DNA of 64,000 bases from Phycisphaerae bacterium (GTDB taxonomy: Bacteria; Planctomycetota; Phycisphaerae; UBA1845; Fen-1342): assembly GCA_017999985.1 (NCBI GenBank), contig JAGNKU010000006.1, positions 180,276-244,275 of the forward strand, given 5' to 3'. Below the pieces are notes generated by a model that was not told where the DNA came from, made no database searches, and was given only the letters and a program-made list of their open reading frames with translations. Made by a program: the position numbers and the translations under genes. Positions 50,381-56,309 of this stretch are shown here, piece by piece (position 1 is the first letter of the stretch; the number at the start of each line of letters is the position of its first letter).

Positions 50381-50410
50381 CTACATATTGTATTATGGGC
50401 GACAATATAG
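50381..50410. promoter_or_regulatory. Inverted repeat in the smc / spermidine-synthase divergent region
   Basis: ATATTGT (50385-50391) and ACAATAT (50402-50408) are perfect inverted arms around a 10-base spacer in the only AT-rich part of the region. The outer half-site CTATATTGT resembles the CTATATTGA arm of the palindrome at 10707-10724. It may be a regulator site or promoter core for one or both genes. Confidence 0.4.
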
Positions 50411-50570
50411 CCCCAGCCCTGTGCACGTGCAAGTGGATTATGCGCTTTATGCAACCCGCGCGCCGCAGGCCGCAGCACCGGACCGGCAGCGCCGTTTGCC
50501 AGCGCGCGCGCGTTCAGATATTCTGCGACCACGCGCTGGCAATTCCGCCACGCCATTGGGACGAACCCCC

Positions 50571-53500
50571 GTGCGCACACCGCTCCTGTATCTGCTGTTC
50601 CTTCTGTCCGGCGCCGCCGGCCTGATCTACGAGCTCGTCTGGGTGCGCGAGCTCATTTTTGTTTTCGGCGGCACCACGTACGCCATCACCACCGTGCTTG
50701 TCGCGTTCATGGGCGGCCTCGGCCTCGGCTGCTTTTTCGCCGGGCGCTGGTGTCACCGCCTCGAGCGGCCGGGGCACACCTACGGCGTGCTGGAGATCTG
50801 CATCGGGCTCTACGCGCTGTGCGTGCCGTTCCTGCTGAACGTGGCCGAGCCGGGGTACCGCGCGCTGTACCCGCATCTGGCAAACCAGCCGTGGCTGCTC
50901 AACCTCGTCCGCTTTGGCGTGGGCGGCCTGATCCTGATCGTACCGACCACGTTCATGGGCGCGACGCTGCCGATCCTCGTCCGCTACGTCACGCTGCAGG
51001 GCGGCGCGCTGGGCCGCTCCGTCGGTCATCTGTACGGCATCAACACGTTCGGCGCCGTGCTCGGCACGCTGGCGGCCGGGTTCGTGCTCATCCCCACGCT
51101 CGGCCTGCTGCACACGACCTGGCTCGCCGCAACGCTCAACATCCTGATCGGCATCGTCGCCGTGAATCTGCTGAACCAGACGGCGCAGGCGGCCGCGCCG
51201 GCGCGCGCCGCGGCCGCGCGCGCGGACGCACTGGCTGCTCCGCCGCTTTCCGGTCGGCTGCGCCAGGTCGTGCTCGTGGGCTTCGCGGTCTCCGGCTTCG
51301 CGGCCATGGTTTACCAGATCACGTGGTCGCGCGCGCTGGTCATGGCGGTCGGCTCCACCACCTACGCCTTTACCTGCATCCTGGCGGCGTTCATCCTCGG
51401 CCTGGCCCTGGGCAGCCTCGCGATCGCGCGCTGGGCCGACCGCTGGAAGGACCCGGTCTTCGTCTTCGGCGTGCTCGAGCTGCTGATCGGCCTGATCGCG
51501 GTCGTGATCGTGCCGATCCACGGCCGCGTGCCCCTCATCGTCGCAGACATCATCGACGCCTACTCCAAACGCCACAACGGAGCCGTCATTACGTGGCAAT
51601 TCTATGTAACCTGGCAGTTCCTGCTGATCATCGCCATCACGTTCGTGCCGACGTTTCTGATGGGCGCGATCTTCCCGCTCGCAACCCGCGCCCTCGCCGG
51701 GGCCGGCGACGAAGCCGGGGCCGCCACCGGCCGCGCCTACCTCGTGAACACGATCGGCACGATCGCCGGATCGTTTCTGGCGGGCTTCATGCTGATTCGG
51801 AGCGACGTGCTGGGGATTCAGAACTCCATCATCCTGGCCAGCCTCCTCAACGGCATCGTCGGGCTGGCGCTGGTGCTGCTCGCGCGGCGACCAACCGGTG
51901 CGGCGTTCGCGCCCCGGGCCGCGGTGGCCGGCGTGCTGCTCGTACTCATCCCCGTCGTCGCGGTCGCCGCCGGGCGCTGGGACCGGCACACCCTGACCGC
52001 CGCTCCGTTCATGATGCGCCACTCGGCGACGGCGGCGCGCGAGATCGTCTACTACGGCGAAGGTGTGGACGTCACGGTGAGCGTCGAGCACCCGGCCGGC
52101 CTGCCGCAGCTGCTCACCATGCGCGTCAACGGCAAGCCCGACGCGTCCACGGACTTCGGCGACATGGTCACGATGCTGCTGCTCGGCCACGTGCCCGCGC
52201 TGGTGGGCCCCGAAGCCCGCACGGCCTGCATGGTCGGCCTGGGCTCGGGCCTGTCGCTCGGCGCGCTCGCCTGTCACCCGTCGTTCGAGCAGATCGACTG
52301 CGTGGAGATCAGTGACGACGTGATTCGCGGCGCGCAGTTGTTCAACCCGTACACGTACAACGTCCTGAACCGTGATCCGCGCGTCCACATGATCCTGGCC
52401 GACGGGCGCAACCACCTGCTGCTGACCAACCGCACCTACGACATGATCATCACCCAGCCGTCGAACCCCTGGATGGCCGGCGTGTCCAACCTCTTCACGC
52501 GCGAATACTTCGAACTCGGCCGACGGCGCCTGACCGACCGCGGCGTGATCGCCGTCTGGCTCCAGGGCTACCGGACCTCGCTGCGCGACTTCCAGATGAT
52601 TGTGCGCACGCTGTTCGAGGTCTTCCCGCACGTGTCGCTCTGGGAGCTCAACGAGGACGACTTCCTGATGATCGCCTCGCCCCAGGCGCTGCAGCTCGAT
52701 TTCACCGAGTTCACGCGCCGCTTTCGCACACCCACCGTGTGGGCTGACCTGTACCGCGTCAGCGTGCGGCGGCCGGCCGACGTGCTCAGCCGCTACGTGG
52801 CCTCGGACCAGACGCTGCGCGAATGGGTGGCACAGGCGCCGATCCACACAGACGACAACGCCCTGCTCGAATTCTCCGCCCCGCGCCAGATGTTCATCGC
52901 CCATCGCACGATTGCCGCGGCCTTGTATCTCTTGCAGCGCTCGCCGGTCACCGACCTGGTGCGCGATCCGGCCACTGTGCCTGCGGAGTTCGTCCGCGAG
53001 CTCGAAAACGCCGTCGCGGCGCGCTGGGTCCGCATTCGTGGCGATGAGCTCATGGAGCGCGAGGACGTCGCCGGCGCGCTGCGCCTGCTGCTTGACACCT
53101 ACGCGACCTGCCCGCACAACGCGCAGCTCTACCGATTCATCATGTATTCGCACGACGGGATCACGGACAGCTTGCGGAAGCGGCAGATCCCGGCCCAACC
53201 CGAAGTCGCGGCGTTGCTGGAGCGAATCGCGCAGCTGCCGCCCCCCAGGGGGTTCGCGCCGCTGACGGGCGCAACGCTGGCGCAACTCGCGACCACCCAG
53301 CGCGGCCTTGCACAGGCCGCGGCGCAGCGCGGCCAGTGGCCTGCGGCCGTCGCGTTGCTGCGCGAGGCGCACGACCTCCAGCCCGAAGACACCGAGGTGA
53401 CGCGCGCGCTGGCGAACGCGCTGGGACAAGTCGGGCAGCTCCCCGAGGCCGCCCGAATCCTCGATGACCTGCTGGCGCGGCGCCCGGAGGACGGCGCGGC

Positions 53501-53696
53501 CAACTATCTCCGCGCGGTGATCGCGGCGCACAGCGGTGATCCGGCCACAGCGCTGCAGCGACTCGAGCAGGCGCTGCAATGGGGCGCGGTCTCCGCCGCC
53601 CAGCTTGCGTCTGATCCGAATCTCGAGCCGCTGCGCGCCGATCCACGGTTCCAGGCGCTTCTGACTCCGCCGACCACCGCGCCGGCCGCGCCCTGA
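50571..53696 (+). CDS. Fused membrane / spermidine-synthase-like / TPR protein
   Basis: A 1,041-residue protein. Residues 1 to about 490 contain 12-14 membrane helices in two repeats ([20 protein letters not shown], then [20 protein letters not shown]). Residues about 500-780 have a spermidine-synthase-like methyltransferase fold ([15 protein letters not shown] near 553, [30 protein letters not shown]). The last about 150 residues form TPR-like repeats ([20 protein letters not shown]). In place of the catalytic DSTDP of true spermidine synthase it has ITQPSNP, so the transferred group and substrate are unknown. The start is a GTG at 50571; the longer frame begins at a TTG without support. Such fusions are widespread in planctomycetes and proteobacteria. 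Confidence 0.87.
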
Positions 53697-53956
53697 TCTG
53701 CGCCCCGCGGCGGGCTGATCTACGGGTGCCGTGGCCGCGTCCGGGGCACGCAGGCACCGGCCCGTCGCCGACGCCGTGAAACCTGCGAACGCCGCCGATC
53801 CGCGGAAAAAACGCGCAACATATTGAAAAATATTGAGTTAGATCGCTTTCAGACATGCCGGTCGCGGCGCGGGCCCACGCGGCCCGCGGACGCCGGCCGA
53901 TCGAACCGCCCCCGTCCGAGAACGCGTGATACCCCGGAAATTTGGACAAACAAAGC

Positions 53957-53985
53957 TTGCAACGGCCTGCCGCGCGGAGTATAAA
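53957..53985 (+). promoter_or_regulatory. Promoter of PEP-CTERM unit 1
   Basis: TTGCAA (53957-53962), 17 bases, TATAAA (53980-53985): a good sigma-70-type pair. The first leader hairpin begins 17 bases after the -10 box, so the transcript probably starts about 10 bases before it. Unit 2 has a corresponding element at 55285-55314. Confidence 0.65.
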
Positions 53986-54002
53986 GAGATCAGTGAGAGG
54001 AA

Positions 54003-54091
54003 GGGTGAGCGTCACCCACGTCGGTATTCATGGTCCCAGGAGGCAGAAGCAAACCTCCGTTTGGCAAGCTTCACAACAAAGGGAGAAGGAG
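54003..54091 (+). promoter_or_regulatory. Structured 5-prime leader of PEP-CTERM unit 1
   Basis: Hairpin 1: GGGTGA-gcg-TCACCC (54003-54017). Hairpin 2: GGAGG (54039-54043), 10-base loop, CCTCC (54054-54058), inside a block conserved in unit 2 (GGTC, CAGGAGGC, GAAGCA, ACCTCC). The gene Shine-Dalgarno region GGGAGAAGGAG lies at 54081-54091. CCTCC can pair either with the upstream AGGAGG or with the Shine-Dalgarno, so a two-state leader is possible. This is inferred from complementarity. Confidence 0.55.
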
Positions 54092-54094
54092 ATT

Positions 54095-54886
54095 ATGAAG
54101 AAAGCACTGTGTGTAATTGCACTTTTGGCGATGGTGGCCAGCGCAGGCGCGACCGTCCGCGTCTTCGCGACCCCAGCCAGCGCCGGCATGGGCTTGGACA
54201 TCACGGCCAATGCCTTCCAGCCGACGTTCAGCACCGTGACGGCGGACGGCAACAACATCAACGCGTATGATTTCTACTATGGCCACTTCACCGTGACCAA
54301 CTACCCCACGCTCTCGACGCCGGCCGGCGACGCCATTACGCCGGTTGAAGTCCCCGAAGGCGACTTCGCCTACATCTGGGTGCGCTTCGAGTCCGAGCGC
54401 AAGGCCGCCACGATCAACGGCCTGAAGGTCGTCATTCGCGAGCTGGGCCAGACCGACCCGGCCGCTGTCACAACCGCGTGGTACGTCCAGAACGACAAGG
54501 GCAACACCGGCCCTGGTATGTCCCGCAAGCGCTGGGACGGCACCGCGACGCCTCCGGGCTATGCCGAGTGGCACAACAACCCGCAGGCCTTCGTGTCCGT
54601 TCAGGCGAACGGGCTCGTCAACCTGCCGACGGGCACCGATGCGCAGATGATGGGCACCTGGCTCGCCGGCACCTCGACGCAGCCGCGGTCGAGCGTCCAC
54701 CTCTTGGGCGCCGTCCAGGGCATGCCGGGCAAGACCTATGAGATCTTGATCCCCAGCCTGCTCGACATCAATTACAGCGCTGATCCGCAGCCGACCGAAA
54801 TCGCCGGCGGCGTGTTCAAGTTCCTGCCGGAGCCCACCAGCCTGATGCTGCTGGGTCTCGCGGGCCTGGTGCTGCGTCGCCGCTAA
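54095..54886 (+). CDS. PEP-CTERM exported protein, copy 1
   Basis: A 263-residue secreted protein. A signal peptide (KKALCVIALLAMVASAGA) precedes a beta-rich body with NINAYDFYYGHFTVTNYP, FAYIWVRFESERKA, and TAWYVQNDKGNTGPGMSRKR. The C-terminus FLPEPTSLMLLGLAGLVLRR has the PEP motif, hydrophobic helix and basic end that exosortase recognises for surface sorting. The body family is unknown to me. It is the same length as copy 2 and highly similar along its whole length. GGGAGAAGGAG precedes the ATG. Exosortase is not in the window. Confidence 0.9.
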   Translation: MKKALCVIALLAMVASAGATVRVFATPASAGMGLDITANAFQPTFSTVTADGNNINAYDFYYGHFTVTNYPTLSTPAGDAITPVEVPEGDFAYIWVRFESERKAATINGLKVVIRELGQTDPAAVTTAWYVQNDKGNTGPGMSRKRWDGTATPPGYAEWHNNPQAFVSVQANGLVNLPTGTDAQMMGTWLAGTSTQPRSSVHLLGAVQGMPGKTYEILIPSLLDINYSADPQPTEIAGGVFKFLPEPTSLMLLGLAGLVLRRR

Positions 54887-54925
54887 TTCGCGGACCACGC
54901 TTCAACCAGCTCGGTAGTTGATCCC

Positions 54926-54952
54926 AGGAGCCGGGTGTTGAGCCCGGCTCCT
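54926..54952 (+). terminator. Rho-independent terminator of PEP-CTERM unit 1
   Basis: AGGAGCCGGG and CCCGGCTCCT form a 10-bp stem with a 7-base loop, followed by TTCTATTT. It lies 40 bases after the stop codon. The same sequence type ends unit 2. Confidence 0.9.
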
Positions 54953-55284
54953 TTCTATTTGCAGCGACACCGCTCCGACCGCGCCACCGCGAGAACGGTT
55001 GCGGCGGCGCCACCAGCACGTCGGTTTTCATCCGGGGCGCGTCGGACACCTGCTTGGCCACGAGCGTCCCCTGGGGCTTGCGTCAGCAAGCCGCTCGCCT
55101 ACTTTCCGTTTGCCATACCCGAATGCCGCCGGGTCCGCTCCCGGCCCTTTTACGGGACGCACCCGGAATTCGGTCATACCCTCCACGGACGCGCCGGTAC
55201 GGGTTTCGGCCCCGGAACCGCGTTTTCGAGCCCGCGCGGGCCATGCGCCCGATATTCGCACGGAAAAACTTGCGCCGCCCGCAC

Positions 55285-55314
55285 TTGAAATCCCAAATTT
55301 GCGAGGCGTAAAAC
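55285..55314 (+). promoter_or_regulatory. Promoter of PEP-CTERM unit 2
   Basis: TTGAAA (55285-55290), 18 bases, TAAAAC (55309-55314). The distance from the -10 box to the first leader hairpin (16 bases) is nearly that of unit 1 (17), which supports this pair over the alternative TTGCGA-N17-TAAACA. Confidence 0.5.
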
Positions 55315-55330
55315 CTGTGCGTAAACAAAA

Positions 55331-55407
55331 GGGTGTATGTCACCCAAGTAAGAACACGGTCTCAGGAGGCTGGAAGCATACCTCCACTGGCACTTTTGGA
55401 AAGGGAG
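55331..55407 (+). promoter_or_regulatory. Structured 5-prime leader of PEP-CTERM unit 2
   Basis: Hairpin 1: GGGTG-tatgt-CACCC (55331-55345). Hairpin 2: GGAGG (55365-55369), 11-base loop with GGAAGCA, CCTCC (55381-55385). Shine-Dalgarno AAGGGAG at 55401-55407. Loop bases differ from unit 1 while both stems are kept, which points to selection on structure. Confidence 0.55.
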
Positions 55408-55416
55408 AACCGCACC

Positions 55417-56208
55417 ATGAAGAAAGCACTGTGTCTTGTTGCGATGTTGGCACTTGTGGCGACGGCGAGCGCGGACGTCCGCGTCTTCGCAACCCCTGCC
55501 AGCGCGGGCTATGGCTTGGATAACGCAGCCAATGCTTTCCAGCCCACGTTCAGCACGGTCACACCGGGTGGCGACAACATCAACGCGTACGATTTCTACT
55601 ATGGCCACTTCACCGTGACCAACTATCCGCCGCTGGGCACGCTTCCCGGCACGGTTGCCACGCCGATCGAGATCCCGGCCGGTGACTTCGCCTACATCTG
55701 GCTGCGGTTTGAGTCCGAACCCAAGGGCGTGACCATCAACGGTCTGAAGGTCTTGGTCCGCGAAGTCGGCACGACCGAGCCGGCCGCCATCGACGCCGCC
55801 TGGTACGTCCAGAACGACAAGGGCAACACGACGCCGGGCATGTCCCGCAAGCGCTGGGACGGCACCTGCACGCCTCCGGGCTATGCCGAGTTCCACATGA
55901 ACCCGCAGGCGTTCGTGGCGGTGACGGCGAACGGCATCACGAACCTGGCAACGGGCGTTGATGCGCAGATGATGAGCACCTGGTTGGCGGGCACCACCAC
56001 CCAGCCGCGCAGCAGCGAGGCCCTCATCGGTGCGATCCAGGGCACGCCTGGCAAGACCTACGAGATCCTGATCCCGAGCTTCCAGGACATCAACTACACC
56101 AACGGCACCTCGCCCGCTGGCCTCCAGGGCGGCGTGTTCAAGTTCCTGCCCGAGCCCACCAGCCTGATGCTGCTGGGCCTCGCGGGCCTGGTCCTGCGTC
56201 GGCGCTAG
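55417..56208 (+). CDS. PEP-CTERM exported protein, copy 2
   Basis: A 263-residue paralogue of the preceding gene with the same layout: signal peptide KKALCLVAMLALVATASA, body with NINAYDFYYGHFTVTNYP and TAYVQNDKGN-type boxes (AAWYVQNDKGNTTPGMSRKR), and the identical sorting tail FLPEPTSLMLLGLAGLVLRR. Differences cluster in the middle (LGTLPGTVATPIEIPAGD versus LSTPAGDAITPVEVPEGD). It has its own promoter, leader and terminator, so it is an independent transcription unit rather than an operon partner. The ATG at 55417 is preceded by AAGGGAG. The two copies may be expressed differently or together; nothing in the sequence decides. Confidence 0.9.
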   Translation: MKKALCLVAMLALVATASADVRVFATPASAGYGLDNAANAFQPTFSTVTPGGDNINAYDFYYGHFTVTNYPPLGTLPGTVATPIEIPAGDFAYIWLRFESEPKGVTINGLKVLVREVGTTEPAAIDAAWYVQNDKGNTTPGMSRKRWDGTCTPPGYAEFHMNPQAFVAVTANGITNLATGVDAQMMSTWLAGTTTQPRSSEALIGAIQGTPGKTYEILIPSFQDINYTNGTSPAGLQGGVFKFLPEPTSLMLLGLAGLVLRRR

Positions 56209-56240
56209 TTCGCGACGCCGCCAGCTAAGTAGCTGATCCG

Positions 56241-56267
56241 AGGAGCCGGACGCCACGTCCGGCTCCT
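56241..56267 (+). terminator. Rho-independent terminator of PEP-CTERM unit 2
   Basis: AGGAGCCGGA and TCCGGCTCCT form a 10-bp stem with a 7-base loop, followed by TTCTTT. It matches the unit-1 terminator and separates the unit from the convergent ribF gene. Confidence 0.9.
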
Positions 56268-56309
56268 TTCTTTGCGCGCGGGGCGTGGCGGCATGAGCCA
56301 CTCGGCGAT

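Follow-up and report, generated by a model that had tools for sequence, protein, structure and literature searches.

Two tandem PEP-CTERM protein genes in the window, the 64-kb stretch of DNA analyzed here, are each preceded by a two-hairpin leader that is probably a gene-specific control element. We favor the reading that this leader acts at the RNA level as a conserved cis-regulatory element of the 5' UTR, specific to one gene family and read by a putative trans-acting factor, and from the sequence comparisons described below we put the probability of this reading at roughly one half. The leader is conserved, is specific to one kind of gene, keeps its parts in a fixed order and in sense orientation, and shows modest compensation in hairpin 1.

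The two transcription units appear in the window as direct repeats with a constant offset of 1,322 nt, and both run from a promoter-like site through hairpin 1, hairpin 2 and a PEP-CTERM gene to a terminator-like hairpin (Table 1). The repeats that cover the two coding sequences consist of blocks with 79-94% identity, and the encoded proteins, of 263 codons each, are 76% identical. The 1,322-nt repeats and the presence of both terminator hairpins confirm the original observation of a PEP-CTERM transcription unit duplicated in tandem together with two leader hairpins. The further claim that the promoter had been duplicated as well stands in part: promoter-like hexamers are present in both units, but they are analogous rather than clean duplicates, with differing hexamers and an ungapped identity of 33% over the 144 nt that precede the start codons. 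The pattern GGAGG-N6-14-CCTCC occurs at only two places in the 64-kb window, which are the leaders of units 1 and 2. As a separate observation, the terminator-like hairpins of leader-bearing genes (the window units, at 54926-54952 and 56241-56267, and loci L035, L046 and L050) share, beyond their shape alone, the common sequence RGGAGCCGG...CCGGCTCCT.

Table 1. Features of the two tandem units, with positions counted from the first nucleotide of the window
Feature	Positions	Strand	Basis
Unit 1 promoter-like site "type A", TTGCAA-17 nt-TATAAA	53957..53985	+	Sequence reading; recurrence across genomes
Unit 1 GTGAGAG block near the predicted transcript 5' end	53993..53999	+	Conserved in most leaders
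Unit 1 hairpin 1, GGGTG-AGCGT-CACCC	54003..54017	+	Sequence; modest arm coevolution
Unit 1 GGTCCC block and hairpin 2, GGAGG-CAGAAGCAAA-CCTCC	54032..54058 (hairpin 2, 54039-54058)	+	
Unit 1 Shine-Dalgarno core GGGAGA	54081..54086	+	Conserved relative to the start codon, 34 leaders
Unit 1 PEP-CTERM protein gene, 263 aa	54095..54886	+	
Unit 1 intrinsic-terminator-like hairpin with T tail	54926..54956	+	
Unit 2 promoter-like site "type B", TTGAAA-18 nt-TAAAAC	55285..55314	+	Sequence reading; closest to G010_112
Unit 2 hairpin 1, GGGTG-TATGT-CACCC	55331..55345	+	
Unit 2 GGTCTC block and hairpin 2, GGAGG-CTGGAAGCATA-CCTCC	55358..55385 (hairpin 2, 55365-55385)	+	
Unit 2 Shine-Dalgarno core GGGAGA	55403..55408	+	
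Unit 2 PEP-CTERM protein gene, 263 aa	55417..56208	+	
Unit 2 terminator-like hairpin AGGAGCCGG..CCGGCTCCT with T-rich tail	56241..56271	+	

A strict sigma-70 scan scored neither the unit 1 nor the unit 2 promoter, and the promoter calls therefore rest on cross-genome comparison. At the position of the unit 1 site, TTGCAA/T and GTATAA recur in related genomes (G010_99, G006_a, G026_a, G014_a, G016_a, G001_a and G011_a), and inspection by eye showed TTGNNN/TATAA-like hexamers in the expected position; the 5' end of the transcript is accordingly a prediction, taken from the position of the -10 hexamer. Among the genomes with two units, a TATAA-like -10 type was observed for unit 1, G010_99, G015_b, G022_b and G023_a, and a CTAGAA/TAAAA-like type for unit 2, G010_112, G002_a, G015_a, G021_b, G022_a and G023_b. 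With respect to sigma-54, some leaders contain TGGCAC, and by eye no -12 GC follows it at the right distance.

The conserved blocks of the leader are GTGAGAG, GGGTGAGCGnCACCC, GGTCYYAGGAGGCnGGAAGCACCTCC and the Shine-Dalgarno sequence GGGAGA, arranged as 5'-(T)CGTGAGAG-N3-5-GGGTGAGCGnCACCC-linker-GGTCYYAGGAGGCnGGAAGCACCTCCR-N-AGGGAGAA-N7-ATG. The leader core is 72% identical between genomes (ungapped), hairpins 1 and 2 are 28-37 nt apart in 28 of the 30 copies measured (46 and 47 nt in the others), and hairpin 2 lies 46-63 nt from the ATG. It had been noted from the two window units that hairpin 2 retains its stems and differs in its loop bases. The stems GGAGG/CCTCC are indeed kept, but across the wider sample the loop is conserved too, as (R)GAAGCA, and unit 1 with its loop CAGAAGCAAA is an atypical copy. 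In G022_b and G023_c, the copies that have diverged furthest, the place of hairpin 2 is taken by different hairpins that are nonetheless strong. A further copy, L128 (G016:C152, leader at about 1081 of the locus), has hairpin 1 in a 52-nt leader that lacks hairpin 2, a natural deletion. The hairpin-2 consensus GGCnGGAAGCACCTCC also resembles the 3' end of 16S rRNA, which reads GGCTGGATCACCTCC in many bacteria; this likeness could reflect mimicry or chance.

The leader also lies upstream of homologous genes in genomes of the same Phycisphaerae family, and a covariance model built from eight leaders detected it in 19 of the 27 genomes of that family; all searches taken together gave 36 copies in these 19 genomes, as expected from the proposal that homologous leaders would precede PEP-CTERM genes in related genomes. 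A second covariance model, built from 30 leaders and run on 114 genomes of the order and 397 of the class, gave no strong match outside the family, and we take the best such match (E 1.9e-4 over 397 genomes) as chance. An exact-pattern search of 84,980 species genomes matched Phycisphaerae and other Planctomycetota MAGs as well as two Brevibacterium genomes, whose matches were rejected as leaders since they lie inside an aroB-like coding sequence; neither elsewhere in the class nor by exact pattern over the 84,980 species genomes was a convincing further copy found. In the genome of the window itself, an exact-spacing pattern matched unit 2 and missed unit 1, because the unit 1 loop is one base shorter. 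Rfam returned 0 matches at the gathering threshold in the window and nothing meaningful at E values up to 10, in agreement with the initial view that the leader belongs to no known riboswitch class, and a literature search yielded no description of a PEP-CTERM 5' UTR. We file the leader as a candidate cis-regulatory leader that is absent from Rfam and from the literature searched.

The association with one gene family is consistent throughout this sample. In the 34 copies where a start codon could be read, the leader always opens a gene of one homologous family, with a signal-peptide-like start that is mostly MKK, MRK or MKR; a PEP-CTERM-like tail ends all 30 complete proteins downstream of a leader, and all leader-associated proteins form one single-linkage homology cluster. 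Three relatives (G000:C11, G000:C12 and G010:C103) have no leader, which indicates that the leader is separable from the coding sequence. The genome of the window has approximately 49 PEP-CTERM matches, of which only units 1 and 2 carry the leader, and the nearest paralogues (53% and 45% identity) are without it. A role for the leader in a regulon of all PEP-CTERM genes was considered and rejected, given that upstream of 30 matches in this genome it was present only at units 1 and 2. Likewise, the 27 genomes contain 17 exact cores of hairpin 1 and 17 of hairpin 2, and in both cases 16 of the 17 are leaders (the odd hairpin-1 core being L144); the exact cores are thus nearly confined to leaders and give no sign of a wider regulon.

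The window proteins begin with MKKALC...ASA, end in the tail ...LPEPTSLMLLGLAGLVLRRR, and are members of the PEP-CTERM class (PF07589 / TIGR02595) by their C-terminal PEP motif, hydrophobic stretch and Arg cluster together with an N-terminal signal peptide. The PF07589 model scored 18.1 bits on the protein (cut-off 20.7) and 22.5 bits, above the cut-off, in the genome search. P-E-P, S and RRR are invariant in 11 homologues, and homologues share mostly 31-39% protein identity with unit 2. The predicted structure is beta-rich with a pLDDT of 55, and comparison with solved structures gave no significant match; because of this low confidence and the lack of a significant solved match, we claim no fold. 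Within the Phycisphaerae family, the gene usually lies between smc (divergent) and ribF-lysA-purL (convergent), with both the smc and ribF sides seen in G002, G014, G016 and G026 and one side in G001, G004, G005, G011, G015, G020 and G023. Tandem arrangements of the gene also occur in G002, G005, G013, G020, G021 and G023. In the window, a gene for a fused transporter-like/spermidine-synthase-like/TPR protein (50388-53696) is located between smc and unit 1, unlike in several relatives, where smc directly adjoins the PEP-CTERM gene.

Evidence on RNA structure differed between the two hairpins. Folding predictions show hairpin 1 in most of the canonical copies and give an average pairing of 0.67 for hairpin 2. 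Column counts in a MAFFT alignment revealed no double changes in the stems, and RNAalifold retained only part of hairpin 1. A swap test, which compares the energy of cognate arms with that of arms exchanged between leaders, gave p=0.004 for hairpin 1 with a uniform window and p=0.0001 when that window was slid by 4; restricting the set to one copy per genome gave p of about 0.05-0.08, and of 0.009 with the slid window. An earlier version with hand-chosen windows returned stronger values, which were biased by the choice of window. For hairpin 2 the same test gave p=0.31, because its arms hardly vary. We read these results as modest support for hairpin 1 as an RNA structure and none for hairpin 2 in its canonical copies, where our reading is that constraint acts at the level of sequence. 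The absence of compensatory change in the canonical hairpin-2 arms counts against an RNA-level element, as does the folding of entire leaders, which is no better than that of dinucleotide-shuffled sequences (mean z -0.19, n=34).

Several other structures were tried and rejected. A stem that would close the leader by pairing its 5' end with the stretch preceding the Shine-Dalgarno sequence gave good single folds (G013_a, G005_b and G016_a) and a swap p of 0.88, and an alternative hairpin, GCnGG:CUGGC, that would expose CCUCC gave p=0.13. Pairing of the hairpin-1 loop AGCGG with CCGCU after hairpin 2 was dismissed by eye because C is retained in the loops opposite an A in the partner. A search by eye for an upstream ORF behind AGGAGG found no conserved start codon downstream.

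The main rival to an RNA-level element is control at the DNA level, in which a dedicated activator or repressor would use hairpin 1 (GGGTGA-GCG-TCACCC) as its operator just past +1; hairpin 2 would then be either another DNA site or a stretch that only has to do with translation. Hairpin 1 is a near-palindrome just downstream of the predicted transcription start, a typical operator position at which a DNA repressor would bind, and its second half-site is more variable in G003, G005 and G016_b, with GGTGAGCG kept. However, the palindrome is almost absent elsewhere in the 27 genomes; it always occurs within the leader, in constant orientation and order with hairpin 2; the range of spacing between the hairpins (28-37 nt) amounts to nearly one full helical turn; and pairing is preserved in some copies by compensatory or shifted changes. 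We consider an operator unlikely, although it is the alternative we take most seriously.

It had also been proposed that the leader is an anti-anti-SD/anti-SD/SD arrangement, a bistable switch in which CCUCC alternates between the leader AGGAGG and the Shine-Dalgarno sequence. AGGAGG and CCUCC are both near-invariant and do not covary, as if each had a second partner. In the predicted ensembles, however, the probability of CCUCC pairing with the Shine-Dalgarno sequence averages 0.014 over 28 leaders, about 4 pairs at most can form with GGGAG, and in the swap test exchanged arms pair as well as or better than cognate ones (p=0.94); no coevolving long-range pairing was detected. Moreover, Shine-Dalgarno sequences are complementary to CCUCC of the 16S rRNA, and any of them would match the leader CCUCC; such a match is expected and carries little information. 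Pairing of the GGUCYY block, the stronger anti-SD candidate of the two, with the Shine-Dalgarno sequence was likewise rejected, since complementarity is high in many copies but coevolution is not apparent (p=0.61), and shuffling the block left the openness of the Shine-Dalgarno sequence unchanged (0.469 vs 0.469). By pairing, swap and openness tests alike, the leader does not behave as a translational switch that sequesters the Shine-Dalgarno sequence, and we regard the bistable switch as very unlikely.

A small-molecule riboswitch, in which the two hairpins and conserved linkers would form an aptamer controlling translation, would fit a short leader with conserved loops and linkers, the lack of an Rfam match and the single type of gene downstream. 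We nevertheless judge it improbable: there are only about 10 conserved pairs, no coevolving pseudoknot or closing stem, and no expression platform detected by the pairing and openness tests of the Shine-Dalgarno sequence, and the leader is confined to one bacterial family. Repression of the CsrA type through GGA motifs, which the leader has in AGGAGG, in its loop (GGAA) and at the Shine-Dalgarno sequence, appears quite improbable. While csrA is present in 26 of the 27 family genomes and each leader has several GGA triplets, one of them at the Shine-Dalgarno sequence, the presence of csrA does not separate leader-bearing from leader-less genomes, the conserved loop element GAAGCA looks unlike a CsrA site, several copies including unit 1 carry AGAA and lack a loop GGA, and the best-kept GGA sits in a stem.

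The tandem pair provides additional information on how the control regions have evolved. The control region of unit 1 is orthologous to that of G010_99 (G010:C99) and that of unit 2 to that of G010_112 (G010:C112) (window 53925-55416; loci L179 and L178, respectively), with leader identities of 88% and 85% across genomes vs 73% and 76% within. Between the window and G010, the promoter and leader have 21 informative sites that group unit with unit and 1 that groups within genome, whereas the coding sequences have 12 by unit and 88 within genome; the change in grouping falls at the start codon (leader vs CDS, Fisher p=3e-14), and in the protein tree the duplicates group within each genome. This pattern, within-genome over the tract and by unit outside it, is clear for one genome pair only, and is best read as gene conversion of the coding parts with two differing control regions retained; exchange of control regions between units would be a less simple explanation. 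A comparison over eight genomes, in which units were assigned by -10 type and which thereby leans towards the result, was mixed, with window/G002 (10:3) and G022/G023 (15:4) agreeing and other pairs disagreeing.

Returning to the RNA-level element that we favor, it would consist of GUGAGAG at the 5' end, hairpin 1 with the loop AGCGn, a short linker, GGUCYY with hairpin 2 (GGAGG, loop nGGAAGCA, CCUCC) and the Shine-Dalgarno sequence GGGAGA, and would belong to one family of PEP-CTERM surface proteins usually encoded between smc and ribF. We infer that it is the RNA rather than the DNA that is recognized, with the small hairpins and conserved loops bound by a trans-acting factor, which might be an RNA-binding protein, a small RNA or the 30S subunit, and that this putative factor sets the translation or stability of this one PEP-CTERM mRNA. 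The leader does not look like a self-contained refolding device that would hide the Shine-Dalgarno sequence. More tentatively, it may represent a new family of regulatory leader RNA, restricted to one Phycisphaerae family and served by a dedicated factor, with two leader versions kept while conversion homogenizes the coding sequences. If this is true, nearly the same surface protein would be made under two different controls. Control regions that group by unit beside homogenized coding regions allow selection for differential control of such similar proteins to be tested. The 36 copies also provide a concrete, well-delimited conserved element for one Planctomycetota PEP-CTERM family.

In proteobacteria, Haft et al. 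2006 (PMC1569441) described an upstream DNA element with a sigma-54 site, linked to PrsK/PrsR and common to many PEP-CTERM genes (99/167), and noted unexplained upstream regions beyond this class, with further elements still to be found; the leader described here is one instance. Both are conserved cis elements that lie in the long 5' region of PEP-CTERM genes transcribed as single-gene units. In contrast to the proteobacterial DNA element, the one described here is a predicted transcribed leader, it serves one gene subfamily (2 of approximately 49 PEP-CTERM matches in the genome), and the hexamers upstream of it look sigma-70-like. It resembles the candidate cis-regulatory leaders of Rfam in being a short 5' UTR hairpin element with conserved loops, tied to one gene class and recognized by comparative genomics, but it matches no Rfam family, its covariation is weak, and its conservation is mostly one of primary sequence. 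A GGA-containing hairpin, a GGA at the Shine-Dalgarno sequence and csrA in the family recall leaders regulated by CsrA/RsmA, but the loop motif is GAAGCA rather than ANGGA, and several copies lack the loop GGA. Finally, Shine-Dalgarno-sequestering switches and thermometers have in common with this leader the presence of CCUCC and AGGAGG close to the ribosome binding site, but here these elements are not predicted to sequester the Shine-Dalgarno sequence.
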